A DNA stretch of 64,000 nucleotides. Origin: Halomarina salina (GTDB taxonomy: Archaea; Halobacteriota; Halobacteria; Halobacteriales; Haloarculaceae). This document shows, piece by piece, positions 29,859 through 54,977 of the stretch. A program made the position numbers and the translations under genes. Position 1 is the stretch's first letter; the number at the start of each line of letters is the position of its first letter. The stretch lies in assembly GCF_023074835.1 (NCBI RefSeq), contig NZ_JALLGW010000001.1:744001-808000 (forward strand). The letters run 5' to 3'. Below the pieces are notes generated by a model. It was not told where the DNA came from. It searched no databases and worked only from the letters and a program-made list of their open reading frames with translations.

Positions 29859-30410
29859 TTACTGACCGTTCGTTTCGAATTGATAGTATCGGTCTGGGTC
29901 TGGGAAAAACTTCTCTGGTTCGTCATATCGGTAGGAGACGAGTGATGTCCCATCGAGTTTCTTTATATGCGAATGCATCTCCCCTCGTTCCATGGATGTC
30001 CGAACCATCTCTGAGGCGAACTGCATCCGGTATGTTCCTGAAATGAATAATGATAGCTGTTGATCAGTATCGATACGCTCAATTACGATAAAGACATTAT
30101 TTGATTGAATTTTCTGGTAAACTATCGTCTCATCGAAATCTGCGCGTGAGTCAAACTCTAAAAGTGACTCTTCTTTGTCACCTGAAATGATGTACGTGAG
30201 TCCCCACTCATCAGTTTTCCCCGATGTCGGGTTCTTTGGGGTTGTGTCCCCAGCAGATAACAATAATGTTTCATACCCGTTTTGCTCCCGATCAGCTATC
30301 ATTGCTTTTGTGTCGGCGAGCATCTGCTCGACCCCATCCCTCACCGTATCGGGGTCGCCAACTCGTTCGAGTCTATCATGACCGCCGTGTTCTGGATTCT
30401 CTCCAACCAT
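29859..30410 (-). CDS. Conserved haloarchaeal protein, unknown function (183 aa)
   Basis: It starts MVGENPEHGGHDRLERVGDP and has an alpha/beta middle (LTYIISGDKEESLLEF, VFIVIERIDTDQQLSLFISG). No signal peptide or membrane helix. Base use is more AT-rich than the genes to its left, as in the following 8 kb, which marks the start of the accessory stretch. No function recognised. The gap 29669-29858 holds no gene. Confidence 0.7.
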   Translation of the reverse strand: MVGENPEHGGHDRLERVGDPDTVRDGVEQMLADTKAMIADREQNGYETLLLSAGDTTPKNPTSGKTDEWGLTYIISGDKEESLLEFDSRADFDETIVYQKIQSNNVFIVIERIDTDQQLSLFISGTYRMQFASEMVRTSMERGEMHSHIKKLDGTSLVSYRYDEPEKFFPDPDRYYQFETNGQ

Positions 30411-30554: not shown

Positions 30555-30953
30555 TCAACTCGAAATGCCAATTCCAGCCTCAAGAAACAACGATACTCCC
30601 AATACGATGATACTCGCGACGAATATCTTCGTATCTCTGCTGATTCGCTCTTCAAGAAGCAGTCTATCTTCGTCTGAGGGAAGCGCGTCTTGTATTCGCT
30701 CTTCGAACGCGTATTCTGTATCGTTGTCCGTGGTGAGTAGCTTCTTGTTTTTGTGGGGTCGCTCCGGTTGGATACCGAAACTCCCAACGCCGAACATGAG
30801 CACTCCAATAACGAACAATACGTACTTGAGGGTAAGTAGCCCGTCACCGAAAAGAAACGACAGGACGGCACTGAACGCAATGATTCCTCCGGCCACAGTG
30901 CCTACCCAGAGGGTAAACTCAATTACCTTCAGCTCTCGTCGACTATTCCTCAT
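30555..30953 (-). CDS. Small membrane protein at the end of the oligopeptide ABC operon
   Basis: The protein is 132 aa with three hydrophobic segments (about residues 13-35, 42-62 and 110-130) and a polar central part (DTEYAFEERIQDALPSDED). Its ATG 30953 lies 11 bases inside the upstream ATPase gene, so it is translationally coupled. The function is unknown; it may be a sixth gene of the transporter operon. Confidence 0.65.
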   Translation of the reverse strand: MRNSRRELKVIEFTLWVGTVAGGIIAFSAVLSFLFGDGLLTLKYVLFVIGVLMFGVGSFGIQPERPHKNKKLLTTDNDTEYAFEERIQDALPSDEDRLLLEERISRDTKIFVASIIVLGVSLFLEAGIGISS

Positions 30954-32283
30954 CGATCCGCCGGGCAAGGACTGGTTCGACGTCCTCATACTCCGACATA
31001 TGTCGATGGCAATAGCTCTGACGGCCTGTTTCACTCACTGTATGGAACTCCGGACGCTCATTATCGCAGACGCTGCCAAACGTATTGTGGAGATGTTGTC
31101 GCGCATCTCTTGGGCGTCCGTCTTTCACCTGTTCGACTGCGGTTTGCAGAGGTTCGTTCACGTCGTTTGGCAAATCAAGTTGCCTGAAGAGATCTTCATA
31201 TGCTTCCTCTATGTCGTCGTATCTCGAGAACAGGCCTAACCGGCGTCTGACTCGATCGGATGTCCCCAACTCAATTCGTGAACGTTCTCGGATAACTTCA
31301 CGGAACCGCTCGATTGCATCCCACACCTCGCTATCGAGGTGTTCGTATTCCGGCGGTCGAATCTTAGCGGGACAGCGCGTCGCAAATTGGCAACCTTTGG
31401 GGGGGTCCCGTGGACTGGGCGGCGTCCCAGGTAACATAATGCGCTCTCGGGAGGCTGTTGGATCTGGTCGAGGGATTGCCGACAGAAGCGATTGGGTATA
31501 CGGATTCTCTGGATCGTTGTAAAGCTCCTCGGTCTCTCCGAGCTCCATAATCTTTCCAAGGTACATCACTGCAACCCGGTCACAAATATGGCGAATTACA
31601 GATAGGTCGTGGGCGATGAAGAGATACGTCAGGTCGAACTCGTCCTGTAAGTCCTCGAGCAACGTGATGATTTTCGCCTGAACACTAACGTCGAGCGCAC
31701 TTACGGGTTCGTCCAGAACTACGAACTCCGGCTCAAGCGCTAGTGCCCGCGCAATACCAACTCGTTGTCGCTGTCCTCCAGAGAACTGGTGTGGATATCG
31801 AAAGTAGTGCTCCTTTCGAAGACCGACCTGTGACAGAAGCTCGACTACGCGCTGACGACGTTCTTGCTTTGTCTCCCAACCATGGGCGTCTAGTGGCTCT
31901 TGGATAATTTCACCGACCGTCATCCGGTCGTTGAGGCTCGATTCAGGGTCCTGGAAGACCATCTGAGCGTTTCGACGCCATTCCTTCAACTCAGAACCGC
32001 TGAGCGACGTAACATCTGTCCCATCGAATAATATCTCGCCTTCTGTAGCAGTCTCCAATTGGATGAGAGTCCTTCCGAGAGTGCTCTTTCCCGACCCAGA
32101 TTCGCCGACTAATCCAAAGGTCTCACCCTCTTTGATTTGGAAGCTAACGTCATTGACTGCCTTCACAGGAGCATCGGCAAAGAACCCATCTCCACCATAG
32201 TATTTTTTGAGATTCCGCACTTCGAGTAGCGTTTCGCTCTGTGTACGTTGCTCAAGGTCTGATTGGCCAGTTGTCTTGCTCAT
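30943..32283 (-). CDS. Oligopeptide-type ABC ATPase (DppF/OppF)
   Basis: The protein is 446 aa. Walker A is GESGSGKST, the signature is SGGQRQR and Walker B is FVVLDEPVSALD. The oligopeptide C-terminal region with CQFATRCP follows. A further ~100 residues (from about 340) carry more Cys/His (SVCDNERPEF, SYCHRHMSEY), longer than bacterial OppF. It overlaps the preceding ATPase by 4 bp. Confidence 0.92.
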   Translation of the reverse strand: MSKTTGQSDLEQRTQSETLLEVRNLKKYYGGDGFFADAPVKAVNDVSFQIKEGETFGLVGESGSGKSTLGRTLIQLETATEGEILFDGTDVTSLSGSELKEWRRNAQMVFQDPESSLNDRMTVGEIIQEPLDAHGWETKQERRQRVVELLSQVGLRKEHYFRYPHQFSGGQRQRVGIARALALEPEFVVLDEPVSALDVSVQAKIITLLEDLQDEFDLTYLFIAHDLSVIRHICDRVAVMYLGKIMELGETEELYNDPENPYTQSLLSAIPRPDPTASRERIMLPGTPPSPRDPPKGCQFATRCPAKIRPPEYEHLDSEVWDAIERFREVIRERSRIELGTSDRVRRRLGLFSRYDDIEEAYEDLFRQLDLPNDVNEPLQTAVEQVKDGRPRDARQHLHNTFGSVCDNERPEFHTVSETGRQSYCHRHMSEYEDVEPVLARRIDEE

Positions 32284-33389
32284 ACTGTATCACTCTCCGT
32301 GGTAGAATCGGCTCCAAGTGATCGGTGATGTGCTACGCGAGATTCCTCGTCTTTATCGCTGGGGTAAAGCAGACATGCCGCGGTATGCTCATCGCTTTCA
32401 CCTACTTGTACGTGCTCTGGGTGAACTTGGTCGCACGCGTCGAATGCTTCTGGACATCGTGGTGCGAACCGACAATAGGTGGCTGGCTCATTCGGCGTTG
32501 GGACATCCCCCTCAATCGTCCGGAGCCGTTCATTGCCGGACCGTTCGCCTGGTATCGCGTCAAGCAACCCTTGTGTGTAGGGGTGACGGGGGTTTGCGAA
32601 CAGTTCTTCTACTGGTGCCGTTTCCACGATCTCTCCTGCATACATGACGTTAACGCGATCCGCTATTTCGGCGATCACCCCCATGTCGTGAGTGATGAAC
32701 AGGATTGAAAGCCCACGCTCCTCTTGCAGCTCCCCGAGTAAATCGAGAATCTGCGCCTGAATTGTTACGTCCAGCGCCGTGGTTGGCTCGTCGCAGATGA
32801 GAAAGTCTGGGTCACAGGCGAGCATCATCGCAATGACGGCCCGTTGGCGCATTCCGCCCGAAAACTCGTGTGGATACTCGTTGAGTCGGCGTGATGCATC
32901 CGGGATCGCGACGGATTCAAGAAGATTTACCGCTTCCTCACGGGCCTCTTCACCACGCAGCCCTTGGTTGAACCTGAGGGCTTCCATAATTTGGTTTCCG
33001 ACGGTGTAGACAGGATTCATCGACTGTTGTGGATCCTGAAACACCATCCCAAGGCCACTCCCTCGGATCTCCTGATACTGTTTATCTGTATATTCTGTTA
33101 GCTCCTTCCCATCAAACTGGATTGATGAACCAGATAGTATCTTCCCTGGGCTTTCAATGAGTCCCATGAGCGACCGCGCAGTCACACTCTTCCCAGACCC
33201 TGATTCGCCTACAATACCGACGGTTTCCCCTTGCTTTACGTCGAAGCTAATCCCATCTACAGCCCGAATTGTCTCCCGATCAGTGTAGAACACTGTTTGC
33301 AAGTTTTTCACTGACAGGATAGGCTCCCCGTCTGTGTCTTCCTTTAGTTCTTCTTCGGTTTTCCCTTGACTCGTGTCTGTCTGCATCAT
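32280..33389 (-). CDS. Oligopeptide-type ABC ATPase (DppD/OppD)
   Basis: The protein is 369 aa. Walker A is GESGSGKS, the signature is FSGGMRQRAVIAM and Walker B is FLICDEPTTALDV. The C-terminal CRFAPRCPEAFDAC segment is typical of DppD/OppD. It pairs with DppF as the ATP motor. It overlaps both neighbours by 4 bp (ATGA junctions). Confidence 0.93.
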   Translation of the reverse strand: MMQTDTSQGKTEEELKEDTDGEPILSVKNLQTVFYTDRETIRAVDGISFDVKQGETVGIVGESGSGKSVTARSLMGLIESPGKILSGSSIQFDGKELTEYTDKQYQEIRGSGLGMVFQDPQQSMNPVYTVGNQIMEALRFNQGLRGEEAREEAVNLLESVAIPDASRRLNEYPHEFSGGMRQRAVIAMMLACDPDFLICDEPTTALDVTIQAQILDLLGELQEERGLSILFITHDMGVIAEIADRVNVMYAGEIVETAPVEELFANPRHPYTQGLLDAIPGERSGNERLRTIEGDVPTPNEPATYCRFAPRCPEAFDACDQVHPEHVQVGESDEHTAACLLYPSDKDEESRVAHHRSLGADSTTESDTV

Positions 33390-34936
33390 GCACCTCCACC
33401 TGCTGCGGCTTGTTCTCCAGTGCTGCTTTCAGTTTCGGGGTCGATTGCGTCTCGAAGTCCGTCGCCGAGAGCATTCAATCCCGTGACGAGGATGACGATC
33501 ATCAGTCCAGGAATCAGCGAAATGTGCCAGGACGGCCCTGCCACGTAGCTCTGGCCTTGTGATATTGCCCGTCCCCAGGCTGGAGTCGGTGGGGAGATTC
33601 CAAGACCGTTACCCAGGAACGAGAGCGCAGCGAGTCCGATGATTATCCCTCCTACTGACATAGATGCGTATACCAGGAGGTAGCCCATTACATATGGGAA
33701 CATGTGCTTTCGCATGATAACGCGTGGACGCTGCCCGAAGCTTTTCGCGGCGTCGACCCACTCTTCTTGGGCCACTTGGAGGGCAGGTCCTCGGACTGCC
33801 CGCCACAGCCCCGGCCATCCAGTGAACGCAAATATCAATGCAAGTAAAAATCCTCCGTCAAGAACACCTGCCAACCAGTGGTTAGCAAACACTGCACTTA
33901 CCATAATCAGCAGTAGGAGCTGTGGTACCGATACAATACCGTCTGCCGTGGTAAGAATGCCGAGGTCAACACTACCGCTGTAGTACGCAGAGAGCATCGA
34001 GAACACCATTGCGAGAAGTGCACTGAGGCCAATGGATAATCCTGCGACAATGAGCGTAATCCGTGCTCCCCCCATCATAAATGTGAACAGGTCTCTCCCG
34101 TTTGGAAGGGTCCCGAACGGATGATAGCGGTTGTACTGATCGTAGCTGAACGGAGCGACGTTCTGATCACCTGCCCCCTTTGACTTCGAGTTGAAATTGG
34201 CGTCTCCGGGCGTAATTGATTCAACTTGGCCGCTCTCCTCGGAGTAGAACTGGATCTCAGACCCATATGGCGATTGGATATTCTGGCTAACAGTCGTTGG
34301 ACTAAGGGTGGATCCGAATAGCGCCATCGTTAAGAAGAGTAAGACGATGAGTATCCCAAACTGCCCCCATCGGTGATTTCTCAGTTTATTAACAATATCG
34401 TCTGAAGGGGCCCAGTTGGCACGTCGATAGTTATTCCTGTAAATGAGCCAGCCCTGGAATATCCAGTAAAAGGCGAACAGTGCGTACACAAGGACCAGCA
34501 ACACACGGAGTGCCCACGCGAACGCAGGCTCTAGACCGAGGAAGGTTCCAACCCAGGGGCCATCAGCACCAGCTAAGTGGCCTTGATTCGGGATTAGCTG
34601 GCGGCTCAGTAATGTCGGGAGCGATTCTGCTACCTCCCGAAATCCTGAAATCGCATTCGATAGCCCCTGTTGCACCCCCACAATGGCCTGGGAAGCGCCA
34701 GGAGACACTAACCCAATGAGGACGTCGAAGAATGCCGTTATCCCCATGACTAGTGCATCCAGCAGGGTTAGTACCCCTCCCAAGAATGCTCCCAGCTCCA
34801 CCAATAGCAGTAATCCTGCAACGGTTGCCCACCGAATCGCGGGCCTAGGATTTTCTGCGATACGCGCTCGCAGTGATGACTCATCCCGTTGGAACGGGCC
34901 TCCTCTTGTCGCTTCGTTTGTTGAATTTGCACACAT
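33386..34936 (-). CDS. Oligopeptide-type ABC permease (DppC)
   Basis: The protein is 516 aa, about 200 more than bacterial DppC. The additional N-terminal part (residues 35-170) has two or three membrane helices and a large loop. The C-terminal half is the classic permease with the EAA loop EWVDAAKSFGQRPRVIMRKHMFP. It pairs with DppB. The last residues are Ala/Gly-rich. Start ATG 34936 is two bases after the dppB stop. Confidence 0.9.
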   Translation of the reverse strand: MCANSTNEATRGGPFQRDESSLRARIAENPRPAIRWATVAGLLLLVELGAFLGGVLTLLDALVMGITAFFDVLIGLVSPGASQAIVGVQQGLSNAISGFREVAESLPTLLSRQLIPNQGHLAGADGPWVGTFLGLEPAFAWALRVLLVLVYALFAFYWIFQGWLIYRNNYRRANWAPSDDIVNKLRNHRWGQFGILIVLLFLTMALFGSTLSPTTVSQNIQSPYGSEIQFYSEESGQVESITPGDANFNSKSKGAGDQNVAPFSYDQYNRYHPFGTLPNGRDLFTFMMGGARITLIVAGLSIGLSALLAMVFSMLSAYYSGSVDLGILTTADGIVSVPQLLLLIMVSAVFANHWLAGVLDGGFLLALIFAFTGWPGLWRAVRGPALQVAQEEWVDAAKSFGQRPRVIMRKHMFPYVMGYLLVYASMSVGGIIIGLAALSFLGNGLGISPPTPAWGRAISQGQSYVAGPSWHISLIPGLMIVILVTGLNALGDGLRDAIDPETESSTGEQAAAGGGA

Positions 34937-34938: not shown

Positions 34939-36027
34939 TTAGTCAGCATCCTCCAATGCGATCCGCGGATCGATGAACGTATAGAGCAGGTCCTGAGCGA
35001 TGTTCAGCACCACTTGAATAATGACGAATACGAAGACGAGAGCCATTACAACCGGGATATCTGGGCCCAGTATCGACCGGAAAAACAGATTCCCGAGGCC
35101 GTTGATGCTGAACACCTGTTCGACGAGAACTGAGCCGCCAATGAGCAGGTAGAACTCATTCATAATCACGGGGAGAAGCGGCACAACGGCATTACGACCG
35201 ACGTGCTTGGCGATAATTCGCCGTGTCGAGAGCCCTTTCGCCTTCGCTGTCTCGACATACTTCGAGTTGATGCTCTCGAGAACCGCGGTTCGAGCAATGC
35301 GGATCTCATTCCCCATCGATGCTGAACCCAGCACCAGTGCTGCGGGAAGAATCCATTTAAACGCTATCGCCATATTCTGTATATTTGGCACTGGAATGAA
35401 TAGCAGGTCCAGTACTGGGACCCCGTTGAACAGGTCTATCGTGTTGAACAGATTGGCGACTTCATCGGGTGTTCCGATAACATCTGTTCGTACCCAGAAC
35501 CCTCGATACCAGGAGAGGAGTCCACCTGCAGAGAGACTACCAGCAATCATCACAGCAAGCCAGAAGTTGGGCATTGCTCGCCAGATGATACCGCCTCCAG
35601 AGGCCAAGTAGTCGCCCCACGTGTTTGCCCGAATTCCGGCATAGATCCCTATGGGTACCCCAAACACGATGGCGATGACCACAGACCAGAACCCCAGCCA
35701 CAATGTCGCTGGCATTCGACCAAGAATAACATCAACCACTGGGACGTTCCGCTGAATGACCCATGATTGGCCGAAATTCAGCGTGAACAGGTCTGTCATT
35801 ACCATGAAGTACTGGTCCCAAAGCGGAACTCGTGATCCATCTGGATAGGCAATTCCGAGTGCGATACGCAACTGACGAGCTGCTTCTGGATTTGCGTCTC
35901 GGCCAAGTATCGATAGTACTGGGTCAAGTGGCCCCAAATACATAACTAGAAATGACATTGTCAGGCCGAATAGAATCACGGGTATGCCCAGAATCAACCG
36001 CTTTACGAGATAGAGGAGCCGATTCAT
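34939..36027 (-). CDS. Oligopeptide-type ABC permease (DppB)
   Basis: The protein is 362 aa with about six membrane helices. The EAA-type coupling loop is KYVETAKAKGLSTRRIIAKHVGRNA, and LPVIMNEFYLLIGGSVLVEQVFSINGLG precedes the last helices, as in DppB/OppB. It is second in the operon, 255 bp downstream of the substrate-binding gene. That gap holds no recognisable gene. Confidence 0.93.
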   Translation of the reverse strand: MNRLLYLVKRLILGIPVILFGLTMSFLVMYLGPLDPVLSILGRDANPEAARQLRIALGIAYPDGSRVPLWDQYFMVMTDLFTLNFGQSWVIQRNVPVVDVILGRMPATLWLGFWSVVIAIVFGVPIGIYAGIRANTWGDYLASGGGIIWRAMPNFWLAVMIAGSLSAGGLLSWYRGFWVRTDVIGTPDEVANLFNTIDLFNGVPVLDLLFIPVPNIQNMAIAFKWILPAALVLGSASMGNEIRIARTAVLESINSKYVETAKAKGLSTRRIIAKHVGRNAVVPLLPVIMNEFYLLIGGSVLVEQVFSINGLGNLFFRSILGPDIPVVMALVFVFVIIQVVLNIAQDLLYTFIDPRIALEDAD

Positions 36028-36282: not shown

Positions 36283-38217
36283 TTAGCTACCGCTGCTATT
36301 ACCGCTGCTATTACCGCTGCTGGTACTGCCACCACTACCACCACTGCCGCTGCCACTTCCTTGCCAGTGGCTTTCATAGGCTTCTGCACCGCCGGGGAAA
36401 ACCTGGGGCGGCTGTAGATGGAACGCACCATTACCGCGTCCCTTAAACACACTGTTCACGAACTGCTCCTGATTGATGACGTATGCCATGGCCTGCCTGA
36501 CTGCCTTTGGCACCTTCTCCATGTGGAACCCGACGAAGTAGGTGTTTATTGAGGACGTTTCAGCCATGTTGACCGTCTGGTCGTTCTCGAGTGGACCATA
36601 CGTACCCGTCGCTTGTCCCCCTTCTGCTTGTCCTAGGTCGGCCTTGTTCGGGTTATACTGTGCAGTTGGAATTGCAGCGACGTCCGCATTGCCGTTCAAG
36701 AAGTAATTGAACCGTGCTGTTGTGTCCGTGATAATCGCCGAGTCAATCCCCTCGATTGCTGCCATCTGTCCATGGTAGTCGTCGAAACGGTCTGCAGAGA
36801 ACGAACCACCGTTCCCGGATTCCCAGTTCGCAAACTGGAATGGACCACAGCCGATGGGATTAGAGGTGGAGAACTCCTCGTACCCCATCTCGCCCTCGTA
36901 GCCCTCGATATCACCAACGATTCCCTCTGGAACGACGGAGAACGCCGAGTACGCGAGTACCGGAAGGACATACGTGAATGGGTTGTTCAGCGTGATCTTG
37001 AAGGTGTAGTCACCCGTTGCTTCAACACCAGTAGATCCTGAAACCACATTCCCATCGTCGTCAGTTTCGCGCGCAATATCTAGCACGGAGATGGGGAAGT
37101 ACGTGTTCGTCGAGTTCGTAGATTCGACGAGCCGCCGGATTGAGTATACGACGTCAGAGGCGGTGACCTCACCATAGTCGCCGTGGAACTGGATCCCCTC
37201 TTTAAGAGTGAATTCGTATTCCGTCAGGTCATCGTTCGAGGTATAATCCTCGACAATGAGGGGTTGGACTTCTGTCGTCCCGTTCTGGTAGTTCATGGGG
37301 GCGTCGAACATGTTCATAATCTTACCCCCACTAGCAGTGTTCCCCGAAGCAATCGGGTCAAGCGTACTGAAGGTTGCCGAGATAGTATCCAGACGGCTTT
37401 TTCCTTCGAGTCCGTTCACTGAAATGTTTTCTTTCGATCGGGACCCACCCATACCCCCAGGTGGGTTGTAGTCGAGTCGGTCGTACCAGAATACCTGTGA
37501 TGCTTGATGGTAAATCGGCAGCAGTGCAGCAGATTCCCAGAGGCCTTCTTCCATTCGGACTGCTGCTTCATTGCGTGCAGTCTCCGCAGAATCACTGTTA
37601 CCTGGGTTGTCAGTGATCTGGTCGAACTGGTCGATCATATACTGCCGAACGGAGGCATCACCCTTTGCGTCCTCCGACCAGAACAGTCGTGCGCCGTTCG
37701 GAGTATATCCATCTGCGTCGTAGATGGTGTTGGGTGGGTCAACAAGCTGAAGGAAGTTCTGCCCCCCCGGGTAGTCAGCGATCCACCCGAGTGTATACGC
37801 CTCATGCTCCCCCTTCTCGGTCGTATCGATTAGAGCGCTGAAGTCAGCCTCATTAATATTCATGTCTATATAGGCTGACTCCAACCGTGCGCGAATCGTA
37901 TTCGCCATCTCGGTCCACGCTGGGCTAGTGTACTGAAGCCAGTTGAGCTCGAATCGGTTATCCGGCCCGTATCCGGCCTCTTCCATCACTCGCTTGGCCT
38001 CTCCGACCCGCGTTTCGTTGGCTCCGTATGGATAACTGTCGAGTCCTTGGAATCCTTCCCCGCCGTTTTCGGTTCCAGTGCCTGTTTCGTTTCCTGAGGT
38101 ATCATTCCCTGAACTTTCGCTGTTCGAGTCACTGGAACAACCCGCTAATGCAACTGCCGCGGTAGCCCCCGTTGCCTGCAAGAATCGCCGCCTCGTTTTT
38201 CCGCTACTGTCTGTCAT
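36283..38217 (-). CDS. Oligopeptide/solute ABC substrate-binding lipoprotein with circularly permuted domain order
   Basis: The protein is 644 aa from the Met at 38217. It has a Tat signal (TRRRFLQ), lipobox LAGC with Cys27, and a Ser/Gly/Asn linker to about 55. Residues 61-260 match the C-terminal part of DppA/OppA-type proteins (EAKRVMEEAGYGPDNRF, EAYTLGWIADYPGGQNFL, LLPIYHQ). Residues 278-619 match the N-terminal part (STLDPIASG, TEVQPLIVEDYTSNDDL, KEGIQFHGDYGEVTASDVVYS) and end at FPGGAEAYESHWQ, where the 61-260 block normally follows. The tail is Gly/Ser/Asn repeats. It is the binding protein of this operon; permutation is my reading from family knowledge. Confidence 0.88.
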   Translation of the reverse strand: MTDSSGKTRRRFLQATGATAAVALAGCSSDSNSESSGNDTSGNETGTGTENGGEGFQGLDSYPYGANETRVGEAKRVMEEAGYGPDNRFELNWLQYTSPAWTEMANTIRARLESAYIDMNINEADFSALIDTTEKGEHEAYTLGWIADYPGGQNFLQLVDPPNTIYDADGYTPNGARLFWSEDAKGDASVRQYMIDQFDQITDNPGNSDSAETARNEAAVRMEEGLWESAALLPIYHQASQVFWYDRLDYNPPGGMGGSRSKENISVNGLEGKSRLDTISATFSTLDPIASGNTASGGKIMNMFDAPMNYQNGTTEVQPLIVEDYTSNDDLTEYEFTLKEGIQFHGDYGEVTASDVVYSIRRLVESTNSTNTYFPISVLDIARETDDDGNVVSGSTGVEATGDYTFKITLNNPFTYVLPVLAYSAFSVVPEGIVGDIEGYEGEMGYEEFSTSNPIGCGPFQFANWESGNGGSFSADRFDDYHGQMAAIEGIDSAIITDTTARFNYFLNGNADVAAIPTAQYNPNKADLGQAEGGQATGTYGPLENDQTVNMAETSSINTYFVGFHMEKVPKAVRQAMAYVINQEQFVNSVFKGRGNGAFHLQPPQVFPGGAEAYESHWQGSGSGSGGSGGSTSSGNSSGNSSGS

Positions 38218-40052: not shown

Positions 40053-43000
40053 TCAGTCGAGACGGTCACGAAGCCACCTCACGGGGTACATTGCGGTCAG
40101 GCCAGCCGTGTCGATGGTGAACTGCTGGGGTGGCGTCGTCTCCGCATAGGACGCCTCGACCCGCGGGTCGCCATCGGCAGGGTCGCACAGCGCATCCAGT
40201 ACGGCATGGCCATCGCGCTGTGACATAACGATCCAAATCGCTGCTTCGGGGTCGCAGGCGGCCATCTTGTCGAAGTCGGCGGGGGTAGCCTTGCGAAGGT
40301 CGTTGTTGACGCGTTCGACCTCGACAGGGACAATCACGTCGCCGTCAGTGTCGAGTGCGGCGATGTCGAGTCGGTGCTCGGAGTCCGGGAGGTCGTAGTA
40401 CGGGACGACCTCGGTCGCCGGTGAGTCGGGATTGTCAACGAACTCTTGTTCGAGCCATCGTCGGCCCACCTCGACACCGAGGACGTGTTGGCTGGACTCT
40501 TCGAGATCACCCTGGCCGTGGCCGTAGTCGACGCCCTGTCGGTAGCTCTCGCCGATCACTTCCCGGCCTGCAGGGGTGACGCTGAACAGGCGGTGTGGGT
40601 GGTCGGTGTCGTGACGCAGCACGTCGGTGTCGAGCAGGTCCTGGACCGCTTCGCTGTCGATGCCGACGTACTCTTCGAGGCGGAGCATCGAGTCGTACAG
40701 GAGGTCGTATTCGAGCGGGTCGTACCGGAGTTGCTGGGCGTTGTAGACGGCCTGGAGGAAGAGGAGCTGGGTGTCCGACCACTCGGTCGCGGCCCGTTCG
40801 TCGGCCGTGAGCTTGAGGTTCACTTCGCAGATCGGGATGTCGGCGCGGTCGGCCTCGGCGAGCGACGAACAGCAACTGATCGCCCGACGCAGCCCGTCGA
40901 TCGAGGGGTCGTAGCGGTTGTCGCAGTCAGCACACTGGAGCGCATGACTCGCGGCGTCGTACGTGACCATCGGTGGGAGGCGCTGGGTATGGGGGAGTGC
41001 GCTGTCGACGCGGCTCGCGGCGTCGGGCTCGGCCACCTCGCTTTCAGGCTCGACAGTTCCAGGGTCGGTGAGCGTCAGTCCGTACGCCTCTCGGGTACGC
41101 TCGGTGGCCAGCGTTCGTGCGGCGTCGAACCGAACCTGTCCGGTGTCGTCCAGCGGGTCGTCACCGTCCGGGTGACCGTCGGGGAGCGCCCCCGATTCCA
41201 GTCGGAACGGTCGGGGTTCGGTATCGCCGAAGCCAGCGGGCAATGCGGCGAGCCACTCGCCGCGCGTCAGTGCCCGCAGTCGAGCGCCGACCGCGTCGGC
41301 GTTGAGCTCGTCCGTCGCCAGCCGTTCGGCCAACGGCCGGTCGTGAGGGACGTTGCCGGTGACGAGCGTCGAGACGTTGTTGAGAACCTCCTCGTAGGCG
41401 CTCGGGGAGCGCTCGCGGAGCTGCGCGGGGAACTGCATCGCGAGCGTGATCGCACAGTCGAATCCGCGAGCCTGTGCAAGGAGTGTCTGCAACAGATCCG
41501 AGATGGCGATGCTTGCCGCCTCCTCGACGTAGAGGTTGACCAGCGGGTCAGCTGGGTCGGCAGGCGCTAGCTCAGTATCCCTGTCTGGGTCGTCGTCGGT
41601 GTCGGTCAGGTCGTCGCCGGCTCGTTTGGTGCCGATCGCCGCGACGGCCTGCTTGCGCCGTCGGAGCGCCGTCCAGAGGTTCGAGAGGACGACCAGCGCG
41701 AGGACGCGCTGGGCTTCCGAGCGCAGCCCGCCGGTATCGAAGATGATGACCGTATCCTCGTCGAGGTGGTCGGCGAGGTCGAAGCGCGGGCCGTCGTCGG
41801 CCGTGTCGGGTAGTGTGCTCGAGTCGTGGGTGGTGCTCGGGATGTCGCTGACGTGGTTGAACACCCGCCCGAGGCGCTCGTCGGCGGGAATCTTCTCGAT
41901 ACGGTTGGCGACCCCCTGCATGATCTCGTCGAATGACTGTGTGCGGTTGGCGGTGACGCCTGCGAGCATCCGTTCGAGGTCGCTATCGGAGACCGCGGGC
42001 GCGGTCTGGCGCTCGTGCATACGGCGGGCGGCCTGGTGGAGTGCGCGGTGTGTGTAGGCGTCGTCGCCGTGGACGGGGTCGAACAGCGCCTTGACGAGAT
42101 ACCGGATGACGTCCGGTGAGCGGACGGCCTGCTCGAAGCGCTCACGGCCCATGATCCCCATGAGGATGTCGAGATAGTGGTCGGCGACGTCCTCGACGGC
42201 GGTCGTCCGACCGACGCCCGCTTGGAGTTCTGCACGAATATCGAAAAACGAGAACGCGGGGAGTACCTCACTGCAGTCGAAGTGGATGACATCGTTGAGG
42301 TCGCCGTAGCGAGCGTAGTGGGCGCGGCAGTACTGTTCGGCGAGTCCGTCGCCCTTCGGCGCGATAAGGATGTCCGCGCCGTCGGTGGCCGCATGGTTGT
42401 CGAGGATGGCGCGGACGAGCGCGGTCGACTTCCCTGAGCCGGTCTTGCCGAGCCAGGCAGCGTGAAGCGGCTGGAGCGTCGGCGGGACCGCGATGGGCTT
42501 GGGTTCGGTTTGGCCGTTCTCGGTGACGGGATGGCCGAGCGTCAGGCCCGTCGTTCGGTAGGTTTCGAGCTGTGCCTCCGGTGGCCGTGGCCGGTGTGCC
42601 CGCTCGCTGGCGGTTGCGGCGAGGCCGCGCTCGCCGCCCGCGGTGACGGTACTGTCGAGCAGGCAGAAGCTGGGGGCTTCGCTCGGGTCAGCGACGACCC
42701 CCCGACTGCGTGGATAGGAGAAGGGTAGTCGCGTTCGAAACCGCTCGTAGTTCGGCGGGTAGAACGTCCGCGTTTCGAGGTCGGTGAGTACCTGTTGGCC
42801 CCGCGGCGGTTCGTGGAGTTCGCGCAGTTCGTCGTCGTGGTGGAGCCGCCCGAACACCGAGTACGACGTGTGGCTGAGGTAGTCGAGCGTGCTGGCGAGG
42901 TCGGCCGCGGCGTTGATGGCGGTGGTGGTCGCCGCCCCGGTGAGCGCGACGGCGCGAGCGTTGACGGCGAACGACCGACGGGCGTCCTTGGCGGTGAGTT

Positions 43001-43850
43001 CCTCAACGCGCTGGGCGTCGCTCGGTGTCAGCTCCGCTTTCGTCGGCTGAGTGTCGCGGTCGTCGTCCTCGTAGCGGGCGTAGATGCGCTGCTGGTAGCT
43101 GTCGGCCCCGTGTGAGAAACTCGGATACGGCCGCATGAGTACCTGGTAGACGATCGGAACGGGAGTGTTGACCATCGTCTCGATGACCGATGCCAGCGGC
43201 ACGCGCCCCCGTGCGCCCGAGGTCCCGGCCGCTGTCCCCTTTCGTTGGACGGTTCCCGTGCTGGCAGTGCTCGCGCCGCGCCCGTCAGCACGGGCCTGGC
43301 GCTCGATGCGATGGCCGTCCGTCCCCTCGCGGATCGCCCCGAACGACCGCAGGCAGGTGCGCCAGTCGCGTCGGCCGGCCGCACTCCCCCAGAACTCGAC
43401 GCCCGCGACCCACGGGTCGGGCAAGTCGTCGTCTGGTGTCGGACCGGCGTTGGCGAAGTCGGCCGGATGGAGTTCGACGTGCTCGAACTGGTAGGTGTCG
43501 GGGAACAGTCCCCGACAGACCCGTTCGAGGACGTTCGAGTTGCCGGGCGGGTCGACGCCAACGTAGTACTCGAGCCGGTTCGGGCGGCCGTGTGAGAAGA
43601 CGAGCCACTCGATGGTTGCCGTCGGTCGGGCCTGATACAGGTGCTGGAGCCGCGACCTAGTGTCGGCGGGTTTCAGACTGTGGAACTGGCGAAACTGTGC
43701 CGCGACCGTCCCCGGATCGAGCGTCCCCTCGGCGGGTTGGATGCGAAGGTATCGTCGCCTCTCGTAGCCGTCGCGAAGCGTCGTCCGAGCCCGTGGGTCG
43801 ACGTCGTTATCATCGGCGTTCCCGAACCAGTGCCCGAAAGTGTCAATCAT
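40053..43850 (-). CDS. HerA/TraD-like conjugation-type ATPase with zinc ribbon and nuclease-like C-terminus
   Basis: The protein is 1265 aa. An N-terminal ~450-residue region precedes an ATPase with Walker A GKTGSGKST (468-476), IIFDTGGLRSEAQRV, and a Walker B-like LYVEEAAS, as in VirB4/TraD/HerA DNA pumps of haloarchaeal plasmids. After about residue 950 come a CxxC/CC cluster (CADCDNRY...SCC), a winged-helix-like part, and a final domain with HRLDIAALDTDGDVIVPVEV resembling a D...ExE restriction-type nuclease. Likely role: moving or processing plasmid DNA. The nuclease assignment is inference. Confidence 0.8.
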   Translation of the reverse strand: MIDTFGHWFGNADDNDVDPRARTTLRDGYERRRYLRIQPAEGTLDPGTVAAQFRQFHSLKPADTRSRLQHLYQARPTATIEWLVFSHGRPNRLEYYVGVDPPGNSNVLERVCRGLFPDTYQFEHVELHPADFANAGPTPDDDLPDPWVAGVEFWGSAAGRRDWRTCLRSFGAIREGTDGHRIERQARADGRGASTASTGTVQRKGTAAGTSGARGRVPLASVIETMVNTPVPIVYQVLMRPYPSFSHGADSYQQRIYARYEDDDRDTQPTKAELTPSDAQRVEELTAKDARRSFAVNARAVALTGAATTTAINAAADLASTLDYLSHTSYSVFGRLHHDDELRELHEPPRGQQVLTDLETRTFYPPNYERFRTRLPFSYPRSRGVVADPSEAPSFCLLDSTVTAGGERGLAATASERAHRPRPPEAQLETYRTTGLTLGHPVTENGQTEPKPIAVPPTLQPLHAAWLGKTGSGKSTALVRAILDNHAATDGADILIAPKGDGLAEQYCRAHYARYGDLNDVIHFDCSEVLPAFSFFDIRAELQAGVGRTTAVEDVADHYLDILMGIMGRERFEQAVRSPDVIRYLVKALFDPVHGDDAYTHRALHQAARRMHERQTAPAVSDSDLERMLAGVTANRTQSFDEIMQGVANRIEKIPADERLGRVFNHVSDIPSTTHDSSTLPDTADDGPRFDLADHLDEDTVIIFDTGGLRSEAQRVLALVVLSNLWTALRRRKQAVAAIGTKRAGDDLTDTDDDPDRDTELAPADPADPLVNLYVEEAASIAISDLLQTLLAQARGFDCAITLAMQFPAQLRERSPSAYEEVLNNVSTLVTGNVPHDRPLAERLATDELNADAVGARLRALTRGEWLAALPAGFGDTEPRPFRLESGALPDGHPDGDDPLDDTGQVRFDAARTLATERTREAYGLTLTDPGTVEPESEVAEPDAASRVDSALPHTQRLPPMVTYDAASHALQCADCDNRYDPSIDGLRRAISCCSSLAEADRADIPICEVNLKLTADERAATEWSDTQLLFLQAVYNAQQLRYDPLEYDLLYDSMLRLEEYVGIDSEAVQDLLDTDVLRHDTDHPHRLFSVTPAGREVIGESYRQGVDYGHGQGDLEESSQHVLGVEVGRRWLEQEFVDNPDSPATEVVPYYDLPDSEHRLDIAALDTDGDVIVPVEVERVNNDLRKATPADFDKMAACDPEAAIWIVMSQRDGHAVLDALCDPADGDPRVEASYAETTPPQQFTIDTAGLTAMYPVRWLRDRLD

Positions 43851-47902: not shown

Positions 47903-48241
47903 ATGACGACCCACCCACTCGACCGACTCTCGACGACCGCGCGTATTCTGAAACGCGCCCAGTACGAGGCGTTCGCGTTCTCACTGCTCGCCGACGGGGA
48001 CGTTCTCGTCCGCAACGAGAGCTACGCCAATCCGAGCGACCACGAGTACCGCGTTCGGGTTCGTGACGGCCTGCCTGTCGCGTGTCCCTGCCCGGCCGAC
48101 GAACGGTACGAGCACGCCTGCAAACACCGCGTTGCGTTGGCGGTACGGCGTCCGGTTCTCGACACCGCACGTGCCGCCCGAGCCGTCACTGACGCGGACA
48201 GGGCCGCGGCTGGTCTCTTAAGTCGGCGATCGACTCGCTGA
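47903..48241 (+). CDS. Small SWIM zinc-finger protein (112 aa)
   Basis: The core CPCPADERYEHACKHRVAL fits the SWIM motif CxCxnCxH. YEAFAFSLLADGDVLVRNES precedes it. SWIM domains bind DNA or protein in transposon- and plasmid-related factors. The ATG at 47903 is preferred; an in-frame Met at 47849 exists. It overlaps no neighbour and lies before the TFB gene. Confidence 0.75.
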   Translation: MTTHPLDRLSTTARILKRAQYEAFAFSLLADGDVLVRNESYANPSDHEYRVRVRDGLPVACPCPADERYEHACKHRVALAVRRPVLDTARAARAVTDADRAAAGLLSRRSTR

Positions 48242-48261
48242 CTACCCTCTCCTGCACCGCC

Positions 48262-48298
48262 GTCGGTTGTTCTTCCCCCCCGAGGGGTGCGGGGCGTC
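48262..48298 (+). promoter_or_regulatory. Shared upstream hairpin, copy 2 (before the TFB gene)
   Basis: GGTTGTTCTTCCCCC and CGAGGGGTGCGGGGCGT end two bases before the start at 48300. It has the same TTGTTCT lead and GAGGGGTGC centre as the copy at 54941. Confidence 0.5.
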
Positions 48299-48299
48299 G

Positions 48300-49268
48300 A
48301 TGAGTGTCCCGAGATCGACCATGCGACACCGAGCTATCTACGATACCGGCTTCGACGAGGACGAACAGAGTGGGTCAACCGCTGAGACGTGCCCGGAGTG
48401 CGACGGGGTGGTCCGAACGAACAGTCGAGAGACGGTCTGTGAGGACTGTGGGCTGATCATCGACGAGCAGGTGATCGATCACGGGCCGGAGTGGCGAACG
48501 TTCGACGACGATGGCACTCGTGACCGTGTGCGGACGGGCGCACCACTCACCGAACGCCGTCACGACCGGGGGCTCTCGACCGAGATCGGGAGGAAGCGTG
48601 ACGGGCGGGGTAACACGCTCTCAGGACGGAAGCGTCGGCAGCTCTCCCGGCTCAGACGCGAACACGGCCGCGCCCAGCAAGCCTCGACGGCCGAGCGCAA
48701 CCTCGCACACGGACTGGGGGAGGTTCGACGGATCGCGGGGACGATGGACCTCACCGATTCGGTAGTCGAGCAGGCATGTGCCCTGTTCCGACGGGCGCAG
48801 GGTGAGGACCTGTTGGTCGGTCGCTCGGTCGAGGCGATGGCGGCGGCGTGTGTGTACGCGACCTGTCGGTGTAACGGCCTTCCGCGGTCCCGTGGGGAGG
48901 TCGCAAACCAGGCCCGTGTCGCACGGTCCAGGGTCGTCGCGGCGTACAAGACGCTGAACCAAACGTTGCCGTTGCCGGCCGCACCGGTCCCCCCAGCGGC
49001 TTACGTCCCGTCGGTGGCCTCGACGGTCGGCCTCTCGGCGGGCACCGAACGGCTGGGGACGTTCATCGCCGAGCAGGCCCACGAGCGAGGGCTCTCGAAC
49101 GGGAAACACCCCGCAGGCGTCGCGGCGGGGGCGCTCTACCTGGCCGCGGAAGAGCGCGTCGAAGGAGTGACCCAACAGGCGCTCGCCGAGGCGGCGGACG
49201 TGACGGCGCTGACCGTCCGCTCACGATGGGTGGCACTCAGCAAGACCATCGATTGTGACGTGGTCTGA
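48300..49268 (+). CDS. tfb: Transcription initiation factor IIB (TFB), additional copy
   Basis: The protein is 322 aa; the start may also be the Met at 48321. The N-terminal zinc ribbon is CPECDGVVRTNSRETVCEDCG. The B-finger region HGPEWRTFDDDGTRDRVRTG follows, then two cyclin folds (AAACVYATCRCNGLPRSRGE; AAGALYLAAEERVEGVTQQ). Haloarchaea carry several TFBs with different promoter preferences; this plasmid-type copy may serve the element's own genes. Confidence 0.92.
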   Translation: MSVPRSTMRHRAIYDTGFDEDEQSGSTAETCPECDGVVRTNSRETVCEDCGLIIDEQVIDHGPEWRTFDDDGTRDRVRTGAPLTERRHDRGLSTEIGRKRDGRGNTLSGRKRRQLSRLRREHGRAQQASTAERNLAHGLGEVRRIAGTMDLTDSVVEQACALFRRAQGEDLLVGRSVEAMAAACVYATCRCNGLPRSRGEVANQARVARSRVVAAYKTLNQTLPLPAAPVPPAAYVPSVASTVGLSAGTERLGTFIAEQAHERGLSNGKHPAGVAAGALYLAAEERVEGVTQQALAEAADVTALTVRSRWVALSKTIDCDVV

Positions 49269-49391
49269 GCTATCGAAGAACGGACTTACCGGCTGAAAAG
49301 TGAGCTGCCCGCTCAGATCCGTCTTCGTCTACTAGACGTTGCGACGCGCTCAATGTATGAGCGTGAGCGAGAGAGATCAGCCACTGGAATG

Positions 49392-49429
49392 GATTGCCGG
49401 TACTGATTGACAGAGAGCGTGAATCTAAC
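49392..49429. repeat. Intergenic repeat family R, copy 1
   Basis: GATTGCCGGTACTGATTGAC followed by AGAGAGCGTGAATCTAACC. It lies in the 244-bp gap after tfb, which holds no gene. Related copies are at 50272, 50921 and 51690. Confidence 0.5.
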
Positions 49430-49512
49430 CGGAGTACCGGTGCAGTATCCCTCCGGGACTTTTCACATCAGACTGTCACGCCAGTGTTTCTCATCTCGAT
49501 TACTTGACCCTC

Positions 49513-49830
49513 TTAAACCAATGGGTCAACGTCGGTGATGTGTGCGCCTCGTGAGACCGTCTGGGCCGTCGTATCGAATGAAACGATATCCTCGTCGGCA
49601 AGCTTCGGAAGGTCACGATGCATCAGTGCGACCTCCATCTGCTCGTAGTCCGTTTCGTCAGCCATTGACGACGTATCGACCATTCGAGTCGCGACTTCAC
49701 TGGCGAGGAGTTCGAGTTCGTATTCGCTGTCGTCTTCTGAGAGAATATCGACGATCACCCGTCGTCGCTCAGTCGTCACGGCCTCGAAAGCAGCATTTTT
49801 GGAGATCCCCCCCGGTTCGTACTCACGCAT
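49513..49830 (-). CDS. Small winged-helix-like haloarchaeal regulator (105 aa)
   Basis: FEAVTTERRRVIVDILSEDD looks like the first helices of a winged-helix domain, and LELLASEVATRMVDTS and VALMHRDLPKLADEDIVSFD give the recognition helix and wing. Proteins of this kind (short HTH domains next to HalOD1 proteins) are common haloarchaeal regulators. It diverges from the HalOD1-like gene, sharing a ~100-bp promoter region. Confidence 0.7.
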   Translation of the reverse strand: MREYEPGGISKNAAFEAVTTERRRVIVDILSEDDSEYELELLASEVATRMVDTSSMADETDYEQMEVALMHRDLPKLADEDIVSFDTTAQTVSRGAHITDVDPLV

Positions 49831-49934
49831 ACTGATACTAACTGACGTATCACAACACGCTAATTGTTTCGGTCAGAGTTCTCCCCGAAATATATTACTC
49901 ACTGGAATCCAGAGCAATCACGTGAGCGAATAGT

Positions 49935-50246
49935 ATGGATGAAGCTGCTCCAGGTCAGACCGGGTCGGCTGAGCACTACACATACGATATTGGTCCAGAA
50001 GATCCGATGAGTGCAGCCATCGTCTATGCGGCTGCTGATGCCCTCGATTGTGATCCATTAGCGATGCCCGAGTTGCTGTACGATGCCGTCAATGTGGATG
50101 CTCTTGATGCAATGTACCCTCGTGACGGTCACAAGCACTCCGATAATCCGTCGGTCTCGTTTCGTTACTGTGATCTCTCGGTTACCGTTGATGGTGACAC
50201 AGTCGTATTGGATGCGACGACTATTGTCGACCAATCTGATGGCTAG
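49935..50246 (+). CDS. HalOD1-type output-domain protein (103 aa)
   Basis: AAIVYAAADALDCDPLAMPELLYDAVNVDALDAM and the C-terminal SVSFRYCDLSVTVDGDTVVLD match the layout of the haloarchaeal output domain HalOD1, here standing alone. Such domains act downstream of bat-type sensors and response regulators. It diverges from the winged-helix gene. Confidence 0.72.
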   Translation: MDEAAPGQTGSAEHYTYDIGPEDPMSAAIVYAAADALDCDPLAMPELLYDAVNVDALDAMYPRDGHKHSDNPSVSFRYCDLSVTVDGDTVVLDATTIVDQSDG

Positions 50247-50271
50247 TCGCTGCTGTGTATCGAACTGCGTC

Positions 50272-50310
50272 GATTGCCGGGAATGATGAGCTGAGAGCGT
50301 GCGTGTATCA
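50272..50310. repeat. Intergenic repeat family R, copy 2
   Basis: GATTGCCGGGAATGATGAGC then TGAGAGCGTGCGTGTATC. It is a diverged copy, 25 bp after the HalOD1-like stop. Confidence 0.4.
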
Positions 50311-50358
50311 CTGACGACCTCGATGTGACTCGGTTTCTCGCCCAGTCGTATTCTCTAT

Positions 50359-50841
50359 TCAGCTATCGAAGGGCCCCGAAGCATTCGTGGTCGTACTCAC
50401 CCACGAGAAGTCACCCGCTTCGTCCACGATACCTTGGACGTAATTGTAGTAGTCACGGTCGTCGGGAACGGGTGAGAGCGGAACTCGACCCCCATTTTCC
50501 GGAGCGGTCCCGTCGATAGTGAACTCGACGAGATAGACCACCGGTTCGGTGAACACGGCTTCAAACGTTTGGGTCTCTCCGGGAGCGACAGATGCGGATG
50601 CTCGAAGATTCCGTTGTGTCTTCGGAATCGTAACGTCTCCGCGAACATCGTATCCCTCTCCGGTTGTCACAGGCTCAGCACCCACGGCACTAACAGCGAC
50701 GCTGATGATGTGTGGAAGCTCGTGGTGATTCTCGAATCGCAGGGTACCAGCTGGAATGCTCTCGCCACGAATCCGACTACATCCAGCGAAACTCACTGCA
50801 CTCGCAGTACCAAGGGCGGTAAGGAGGGCACGCCGATTCAT
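50359..50841 (-). CDS. Secreted lipoprotein of unknown function (160 aa)
   Basis: The N-terminus MNRRALLTALGTASAVSFAGC has an RR pair and a lipobox FAGC with Cys21, so it is probably a Tat-exported lipoprotein. The rest is beta-rich, e.g. GTLRFENHHELPHIISV and ETQTFEAVFTEPVVYLVEF, like a small beta sandwich that would face outward. No known family. Base use is more AT-rich than its neighbours. Confidence 0.75.
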   Translation of the reverse strand: MNRRALLTALGTASAVSFAGCSRIRGESIPAGTLRFENHHELPHIISVAVSAVGAEPVTTGEGYDVRGDVTIPKTQRNLRASASVAPGETQTFEAVFTEPVVYLVEFTIDGTAPENGGRVPLSPVPDDRDYYNYVQGIVDEAGDFSWVSTTTNASGPFDS

Positions 50842-50920
50842 ACGAATGTATTATTGCTTCCACATATGTATGTTCGGCCACAGAATATGTACTGAGACAC
50901 TCACGGCACGTGTCGCTCAC

Positions 50921-50960
50921 TCTGCGCTATCGAGAGACACAGAGCGTGAGTCTATCGAGG
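50921..50960. repeat. Intergenic repeat family R, copy 3
   Basis: A partial copy that keeps the AGAGCGTGAGTCTATC core after CTATCGAGAGACAC. The rest of 50842-51260 holds no gene. Confidence 0.4.
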
Positions 50961-51269
50961 TGACTGTCGTCGACGTATGTAATCCCCACAAAGGATACCC
51001 CTACTGACCAGAACCATGAGGAACCGCCGTCAACCATGGATGAATAGTTGTGCAGTTACACCGGTCGTACAAACCGTACACACGGATTTTGAGGACGGTT
51101 TACAGCTACCTGTGGATGCCCGACTCTGTCGACACTTCCTCGGAAGACGTGACTGTCAGAAGTATATTTGAAACACACACTACTGAAATTTTGTTTATTT
51201 AATATTTGAGACTGTGTACTATTCTGTTACTTTTATCAGCCCGTTCGTGGAGGGCGCAGTGTGGGACGA

Positions 51270-51524
51270 ATGCGAACGCTGCTTCCGTGGTGGCTTGGCG
51301 CGCGGTGGATGGACCGGCAGGTTGACGCGCTGTACGAGGCGGTCGTCGACGGCGCACAGGAGAGCGAGGCAGCCGTCGAGCGATTGGGTGACCTCGCAGC
51401 CGACGGGAACGAACTGGCGGCGGCGGCGCTGCGCGAGATAACTCGCTCGCTGGACGCACCGCTGGACGCCCGCGTGCTGGCGAAGCAGACGCTCGCAGCC
51501 ACGGGACACGTTCACTCGGCCTGA
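51270..51524 (+). CDS. Small helical protein of unknown function (84 aa)
   Basis: The sequence MRTLLPWWLGARWMDRQVDA continues as a regular helical repeat (AAVERLGDLAADGNELAAAALREITRSL). A GTG at 51261 is an alternative start. GC-rich codon use marks it as coding although it has no known relatives. Confidence 0.5.
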   Translation: MRTLLPWWLGARWMDRQVDALYEAVVDGAQESEAAVERLGDLAADGNELAAAALREITRSLDAPLDARVLAKQTLAATGHVHSA

Positions 51525-51689
51525 AGACAGTTACAACCGCAGTACGCGGTGGGTCGGGTCCTCGGCGGCTGGTTCGAAGCCCAGTTCCGCGACGATGGCC
51601 TCCATCGTCGAGGGGACGCTAGCGGTCGTACGTACCACGTCGGCTCCGGCCGCTCGTTGGCGACGACGACTAAGAACGCGTGCTGCGTT

Positions 51690-51727
51690 GATTGCCGGTT
51701 TTGATAGACGCAGAGCGTGAGTCTAAC
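51690..51727. repeat. Intergenic repeat family R, copy 4
   Basis: GATTGCCGGTTTTGATAGAC then GCAGAGCGTGAGTCTAACA, closely matching copy 1 and lying after the small membrane gene's stop (51749). Confidence 0.5.
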
Positions 51728-51748
51728 ACTCTTCACACTCAGCGCGAG

Positions 51749-52039
51749 TCAGAAGGCGGTTCCGAGCACGAAGAACCCGCCGAAGCAGATGGTAGCGACG
51801 ACGAGTGTTCCGACGAAGAGTATCACGTCGTCACGACCGGTTGCATGTCGGCGTATTCGGCGTCGACTAACTGGTGCGAGTGCCACTGCTGCTCCGAGTA
51901 GCCCGAGACCACCAATCGCTGGAAGGACTGCCGTGAACACTCCCGCAGCGGCGTGGAGAGCGGCGATACCAAGCAACCCGAGTGCGAGGGTCAGGTCGAG
52001 GGCGCTTCCCGTGTACCGGGCGACGGAGGCGACTGCCAT
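51749..52039 (-). CDS. Small membrane protein (96 aa), unknown function
   Basis: Four hydrophobic segments: TLALGLLGIAALHAAAGVF, VLPAIGGLGLLGAAVAL, then after an Arg/His-rich loop, VILFVGTLVVATICFGGFF. The start is taken at the inner Met (52039); an outer Met at 52072 is possible. No known family. Confidence 0.6.
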   Translation of the reverse strand: MAVASVARYTGSALDLTLALGLLGIAALHAAAGVFTAVLPAIGGLGLLGAAVALAPVSRRRIRRHATGRDDVILFVGTLVVATICFGGFFVLGTAF

Positions 52040-52073
52040 ATCAACGCGTAGATACCCTGCTGGTAAATTCATT

Positions 52074-52178
52074 ATGACTGACCTGCCTGTCGATGTGGAC
52101 CCCGCTGTCAGACTCGCGGCACAAGTCTATCAGCTGAATCTGGTGAATTCTGATGAAAGAAAGATGGCTCTCAGGTGA
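52074..52178 (+). CDS. Possible 34-aa protein
   Basis: ATG 52074 opens MTDLPVDVDPAVRLAAQVYQ and runs to a stop at 52178. The composition is haloarchaeal-like and acidic, but it is very short and has no recognised relatives. Confidence 0.3.
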   Translation: MTDLPVDVDPAVRLAAQVYQLNLVNSDERKMALR

Positions 52179-52192
52179 TGCAGCGCCTACGT

Positions 52193-53566: not shown

Positions 53567-53756
53567 ACAGTTTCGCAGAATTACATATTGATAAACTTAT
53601 CCGATTTTCATACACTCACAAAAATGGTGCATTCCGTCCTCCGTCAGAAACGGTGAATGTGAATCGAACGCACACAACCGAGAGCCAACACGACCGATAT
53701 TCGTCGGTACCACCTCGCCTCGAATCGTCACTGTTCCGTGGCTTTTGACACGGCAT

Positions 53757-53786
53757 GTTTGTTCTCGCCAGCATGGGTGCTGGCGG
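53757..53786 (+). promoter_or_regulatory. Shared upstream hairpin, copy 3 (before the 167-aa gene)
   Basis: TTTGTTCT leads into the perfect stem CGCCAGCA/TGCTGGCG with loop TGGG, 27 bp before the ATG at 53814. The stem sequence differs from the other copies but stays paired. Confidence 0.55.
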
Positions 53787-53813
53787 ACCTGAACCCGTCA
53801 GCGGACGACCAAG

Positions 53814-54317: not shown

Positions 54318-54479
54318 CGGCGAGGGCGAGTGGCCACTTTCCCGACGCCGAAAGTCCCTTCTGACCGACGGGAGAGTGCTACCAGACAGGTTCACAGGTA
54401 GTAACCAGTGAAAGCATGACTCGTCGGTGACCCGCCTTGTGGTCGGTCTGTACGCGCCCGGAGCGCCGGAGGCGCGATA

Positions 54480-54797: not shown

Positions 54798-54940
54798 TGC
54801 CCCGTCTCGCGTTCACTCCCTCGCCCGTGGTCGGTTCCGGTTGGCTGGATGACTCCCGAGTCACCAGTGGTGTCGACCCCGTCCGCTTCGCGGCGACCGT
54901 CATGGAGAACGGAGCGACTGAACCGCTGTCGTCTCCGCAC

Positions 54941-54977
54941 GTTGGTTGTTCTGCCCCGCGAGGGGTGCAGGGCGTGT
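54941..54977 (+). promoter_or_regulatory. Shared upstream hairpin, copy 4 (before the DUF932-like gene)
   Basis: GGTTGTTCTGCCCCGCG then AGGGGTGCAGGGCG, 42 bp before the ATG at 55020; close to the copy at 48262. Confidence 0.5.

Follow-up and report, generated by a model that had tools for sequence, protein, structure and literature searches.

Natural circular permutation in a haloarchaeal SBP_bac_5 binding protein encoded beside a Dpp-type importer, and indications of its recurrence in the family

The window, by which we mean the whole stretch of 64,000 nucleotides that was analysed, contains on its minus strand a substrate-binding protein (SBP) gene, which begins with an ATG at 38217, ends with a stop codon at 36283 and has an in-frame GTG at 38229 upstream of the ATG. 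Genes for two permeases and two oligo_HPY ATPases are located downstream of it on the same strand. Relatives of the binding protein were read with separate profiles for the N-terminal and C-terminal blocks, which distinguished the normal order (N-C, 52 proteins), type A (C-N, 35 proteins, the order of the window protein) and type B (C2-N-C1, 26 proteins). The features are as follows, with the basis of each assignment in parentheses.

36283..38217, minus strand: type A circularly permuted SBP_bac_5 substrate-binding protein, 644 aa (ORF, translation, Pfam, homologues, model)
38137..38217, minus strand: Tat signal and lipobox leader, residues 1-27, RRRF...LAGC (sequence, pattern in relatives)
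38038..38136, minus strand: low-complexity tether, residues 28-60 (sequence, model)
37438..38037, minus strand: old C-terminal block, residues 61-260, starting with YPYG (Pfam, profile reading, alignment to L016)
37774..37776, minus strand: Asp148 in GWIAD, aligned to DppA Asp436, mature 408 (alignment)
37387..37437, minus strand: junction, residues 261-277, old C-terminal tail and mature N-terminus (alignments)
36361..37386, minus strand: old N-terminal block, residues 278-619, matching OppA 1-332 and DppA 1-323 (Pfam, profiles, alignment to L016)
36283..36360, minus strand: new C-terminus, residues 620-644 and the stop codon, with a Gly/Ser/Asn tail from 622 (sequence, model)
34939..36027, minus strand: dppB-type permease, BPD_transp_1 (Pfam, conservation beside type A genes, tree)
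33386..34936, minus strand: dppC-type permease, BPD_transp_1 and weak OppC_N (Pfam, locus comparison)
32280..33389, minus strand: dppD-type ATPase, ABC_tran and oligo_HPY (Pfam, locus comparison)
30943..32283, minus strand: dppF-type ATPase, ABC_tran and oligo_HPY (Pfam, locus comparison)

A DUF7529 protein is encoded just downstream of dppF (29859-30410, minus strand).

It has been reported that lipid-anchored Tat substrates are a speciality of haloarchaea and that such lipoproteins carry a twin-arginine motif and a lipobox Cys located 12-21 residues past the second Arg (PMC2945643). The leader that had been recognised in the original prediction was found in the window protein (RR..LAGC, with the lipobox Cys at residue 27), and the lipobox pattern is present in 34 of the 35 type A proteins. 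Two normal-order proteins of the Halorussus type, L016 (L016:5812-7626) and L055, keep the Tat motif and lack the lipobox Cys (VALTGTAAG and VAVTGTVAG, respectively). The Gly/Ser/Asn tail described as the new end is indeed present at residues 622-644, but it is peculiar to the window copy; other type A proteins end within a few residues of ...HWQG, without such a tail.

The central claim that the C block (residues 61-260) precedes the N block (278-619) was borne out, in that rotation of the protein restored a continuous match to Pfam, to structures of the DppA/OppA type, and to L016, a normal-order protein of Halorussus ruber. The native protein matched SBP_bac_5 (PF00496) in two swapped stretches with 196.5 bits against a curated cut-off of 32.4, and the rotated protein matched it in a single stretch (1-361/368) with 209 bits. 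In phmmer comparisons with solved structures, the score increased upon rotation from 70.4 to 83.3 bits for E. coli DppA and from 79.3 to 91.5 bits for Haemophilus 3m8u. With these best matches the rotated protein also aligned across the junction, so that the comparison in both orders that had been proposed as a check came out in favour of the rotated order. With L016, block 278-619 shares 49% identity over residues 64-400 and block 61-260 shares 42% over residues 404-596, and the global alignment scores were 1254 for the rotated, 679.5 for the unrotated and -65 +/- 19 for the shuffled sequence. Furthermore, L016 reads ...GGPDAYTQHAEQ-NYPYGYNQ... straight across the new ends of the window protein, whose chain starts midway through what is usually the C-terminal half, at the counterpart of approximately residue 323 of mature E. 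coli DppA. Both halves therefore have their homologous counterparts in a normal protein, but in exchanged order, and the former termini are connected, which is what defines a circular permutant. A colinear alignment to a normal DppA and an assembly join, either of which would have spoken against the permutation, were looked for and neither was found.

Structure prediction with AlphaFold used alignments of the family of the window protein, to which normal-order proteins were added as separate blocks. The type A model (pLDDT 84.5, pTM 0.82) is disordered at residues 1-55, where pLDDT is below 50, and at 622-644; the type B model had a pLDDT of 88.6 and a pTM of 0.85. In sequential structure alignment, which covers each chain in sequence order as far as the cut, residues 265-621 of the type A model matched OppA 1-332 of 517 and residues 274-619 matched DppA 1-323 of 507 (Z about 24-25), and residues 137-612 of the type B model matched DppA 1-439. 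That the matches stop at approximately 323 and 439 of DppA is as expected if the chain ends there. The structural comparison with DppA that had been proposed thus agrees with the permutation for the N block as far as the cut, where the comparison itself stops. According to the domain boundaries published for OppA, both cuts fall in domain III, in the second lobe, and the normal N-terminus lies in the first lobe.

The same order with the same cut was found in 15 loci from the GTDB collection, including the complete chromosome of Halosimplex pelagicum. These loci belong to Haloquadratum, Halolamina, Halorhabdus, Halodesulfurarchaeum, Halorubrum, Halapricum, Halobacterium and Halosimplex and to one Haloarculaceae bin, and the suggestion that haloarchaeal relatives be searched for this order was thereby answered with at least eight named genera. 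Of 391 haloarchaeal genomes, 27 had a type A protein with a high score, the window's own being counted among them, and in a draw of 393 genomes from the phylum all nine genomes with such a protein belonged to the window's own order. When type A and type B proteins were used as queries against the plasmid collection, the full-cover matches among those listed were to haloarchaeal proteins, each aligned in two pieces, and the bacterial matches listed spanned no more than approximately one half to three quarters of the query length. The dN/dS ratio between close pairs was 0.03-0.28, and type A is under purifying selection.

The type B cut divides the C block in its middle, approximately 120 residues beyond the type A cut. 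For instance, the type B protein L058 is 61% identical over 476 residues to the normal-order L091, with the final 80 residues shifted to the start of the chain, and the type B protein L064 is 66% identical over 465 residues to the normal-order L095, with the same kind of rearrangement. Since the SBP_bac_5 model ends before this cut, type B is invisible to Pfam, where these proteins give a single, normal-looking domain match. In the careful tree, the type A proteins form one clade with 100/97 support, the early branch L137 included, and judged from these sequences type A is of single origin, from a normal-order ancestor in the same operon position. Most type B proteins group near L091, and L064, a lone case from one genome only, is placed among normal-order proteins with strong support. 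A single type B clade was rejected by the AU test (p ~1e-64 for the whole protein and ~1e-88 for the C block), which rules out a single origin of all type B proteins. The same pattern of origins was obtained in trees of the rotated protein, the N block, the C block and the DppB permease, as would be expected of halves with a shared history; in the permease tree, type A is again one clade, the main type B group stands beside L091, and L064 and L095 are paired with 99% support. Because type A is one clade, type B has at least two origins, and the permease tree concurs, the phylogenies show at least three independent circular permutations in one family of one archaeal class. It would seem that the permutations occurred in situ, since permuted genes and their normal-order sisters share the operon position. 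In addition, a normal-order protein, L132 (L132:3725-5677, plus strand), falls inside the main type B group in the careful tree with weak support (90/75), and it could represent a further, fourth permutation or a reversion to the normal order, or else be misplaced in the tree.

Several other explanations for the swapped order were weighed. An assembly join, a collapsed tandem duplication or a frameshift has next to no probability: nothing was found in its favour, although the G+C island that holds the operon could in principle mark a misjoin, and composition is uniform along the gene, dN/dS is well under 1, and an intact ORF with the same order and cut recurs in many independent assemblies, one of them a complete chromosome, on which ground an artefact was rejected. 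A fusion of halves from two different SBP genes in swapped order, with no permutation of one protein, is possible in principle, and the unequal identity of the halves to normal relatives (49% and 42%) would fit it. However, the N-block and C-block trees give one pattern, which is matched by the permease tree of the operon, and the tail joined to the N block in types A and B resembles this family's own old C-terminal tail; such a chimera is accordingly considered most improbable and was discarded. It is also very unlikely that there was one ancestral permutation, with a cut that later shifted and an order that was reversed in some lineages, in place of several events. The position of L132 could mean such a reversal, and the two cuts are located in one and the same region of the fold, but type B as one clade was rejected, L064 is firmly placed among normal-order proteins, and the SBP_bac_5 proteins with solved structures have the normal order, which also argues for a normal-order ancestor. 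It is therefore highly probable that the window protein is a genuine, conserved, naturally circularly permuted SBP_bac_5 binding protein, most likely an ordinary Venus-flytrap protein serving the adjacent importer.

The junction bears on how such permutations could arise. The 17 residues at 261-277 had been described as a linker between the old termini, which needs correction: in types A and B the junction residues resemble first the old C-terminal tail and then the strand at the mature N-terminus, and the segment is therefore mostly native sequence and no new linker, namely old tail and the run-up to that strand. For example, L137 reads ...GGFRQKYNTVSLAE-GSRLEMIASGMSGFDP, and normal proteins read ...GPSRQKLNKVTLNR and ...INTGTMSTLDP. 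Retention of the old tail would fit the attachment, end to end, of an intact C-terminus to the N-terminus of a mature chain. Tandem duplication followed by trimming, the route originally proposed, is plausible, and other routes are conceivable. A route by which the halves were first split and then fused again, or some other form of cut-and-paste, is considered unlikely, if worth keeping in mind. No tandem-duplicated or partly trimmed intermediate was present among the matches listed and no leftover SBP fragments were found in the loci, which speaks for such a route, but split halves were likewise not seen, and a leader that stays at the new N-terminus together with a kept old C-terminal tail fits a fusion of two whole copies followed by deletions. 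Among the matches listed, just one single ORF was much longer than normal, a kinase-like fusion, L128:1921-4845 (plus strand, 975 aa), in which a protein-kinase-like N-terminal domain (Pkinase match with an E-value of 2e-5, below the curated cut-off) is followed by a segment that may be a membrane or Tat-like one and by a type B SBP; this protein is possibly a membrane sensor.

The dpp operon stretch (about 30-40 kb of the window) has a G+C content of 51-53%, and the window is otherwise mostly near 67%; at 48000-60000 the G+C content is again lowered, and variable, with values mostly of 53-64%. The 391-genome draw contained four genomes of the window's genus, none of which had a high-scoring type A match, and in the first tree the window protein grouped with proteins of Halolamina and Haloquadratum (88% SH-aLRT). 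Horizontal acquisition of the window copy appears likely. At the edge of the G+C island there is a 1265-aa ORF (40053-43850, minus strand) with a Walker A-like GKTGSGKS motif, which calls to mind conjugation or HerA-type ATPases and may be the sign of an integrated element.

A DppB relative, 64-80% identical to that of the window, follows the SBP gene in every type A locus that is long enough; the type A loci without dppB, L006 and L014, are both short. It has been reported that D436 of the E. coli DppA precursor holds the amino group of the peptide (PMC12136057). D148 of the window protein aligns with this residue, and the motif is present in all 35 type A proteins. The position of the carboxylate-holding Arg of DppA, R383 (mature 355), falls in an alignment gap in the window protein, and therefore the ligand may not be a dipeptide. 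With the Asp kept and this Arg without a clear counterpart, the type A ligand is probably peptide-like; that of type B is uncertain. Where type B proteins were read correctly, Ser replaces the Asp of GWxxD; only the GWxWSW rows are informative in this respect, and pattern reading of the conserved Asp caught a wrong motif in some rows. The Ser of GWIWSW was seen in type B proteins among L058-L077, L130, L131, L133, L134 and L136, and also in the normal-order L091, and thus the change of ligand probably preceded the permutation in the type B line. For Halobacterium salinarum, dppA transcripts have been reported, which may or may not be those of the permuted gene.

Taken as a working scheme, the window protein would be exported in folded form by Tat, as its leader suggests, and anchored to lipid at Cys27, with the approximately 35 disordered residues that follow serving as a tether. 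A peptide or peptide-like ligand would be captured between the two lobes in the Venus-flytrap manner and passed to the DppBCDF-type importer encoded just downstream. The main change relative to the normal proteins would be that the anchor is attached to the other lobe. Whether anchor position matters to the permuted proteins is doubtful, though the idea has something to recommend it: all three events put the new termini in the same region (approximately 323 and 439 of DppA), the authors of the TpMglB-2 study raised the same idea (PMC4990184), and lipid-anchored Tat substrates are characteristic of haloarchaea (PMC2945643). In contrast, the disordered tether is of similar length in permuted and normal proteins (median 34-35 and 30, respectively), so that anchor position may not matter, and three events are a small sample, for which loops tolerant of cutting would explain the termini too. 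It is a rather unlikely, more far-reaching proposal that the family is a hotspot of recurrent permutation, with at least three independent events at two sites and a possible fourth event or reversal in L132, and that each event moved the lipid tether to the other lobe and was retained because it alters membrane tethering or docking.

The window protein resembles DppA and OppA (cluster C, SBP_bac_5) in that both blocks are homologous, the operon is of the dppBCDF type, the Asp of GWxxD is kept in type A, and the predicted N block with the start of lobe 2 matches them (Z about 24-25). It differs in its swapped blocks, in a tether on another lobe and in the lack of a recognisable carboxylate-holding Arg, and from its sequence we would not class it as a dipeptide-specific DppA. 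No earlier description of a permutation in cluster C or SBP_bac_5 was found in open-licence papers, in line with the original prediction, in which no described case was known for this family, and the main text of the CIRPIN permutation screen of AlphaFold clusters does not mention SBP_bac_5. The closest precedent found in open-licence papers, and the only natural permutation described there among ABC binding proteins, is TpMglB-2 (Tp0684, 'Type Ic / Cluster Bc', PMC4990184), which likewise is a naturally permuted, lipid-tethered binding protein with close operon partners and a moved anchor. However, TpMglB-2 has a type I (cluster B) sugar-binding fold and one topology, whereas the window family belongs to cluster C and has several cuts; membership in Cluster Bc was rejected, as the profile and fold matches go to cluster C SBP_bac_5 instead. 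The permuted part of TpMglB-2 is only 13% identical to its normal counterpart (PMC4990184), which makes its homology unsure, whereas the haloarchaeal normal-order relatives are up to 66% identical to permuted proteins. These relatives (L016, L091, L095 and others) share the family, the operon position and, mostly, the Tat leader and lipobox, and differ in having the normal block order. Several natural permutations per family are also known from DNA methyltransferases (PMC3320104) and PDZ domains (PMC12667903), which are unrelated; the present case concerns a two-lobed binding protein located outside the cytoplasm, whose normal-order sisters are very close. What is notable is therefore the recurrence of permutation together with the closeness of the normal-order relatives.

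The origin and fixation of circular permutations are a matter of debate, mostly because the examples known so far are ancient and their sister sequences have diverged too far. In this family, permuted and normal-order proteins that are up to 66% identical stand before the same transporter operon in related archaea. With such close sisters and at least three events, it becomes possible to test directly by which genetic route the permutations arose, how tolerant the fold is and what a moved anchor does. The type B proteins, which pass as a normal single domain in Pfam SBP_bac_5, are also a warning for annotation, and the family as a whole is a good place to study how proteins survive re-wiring.
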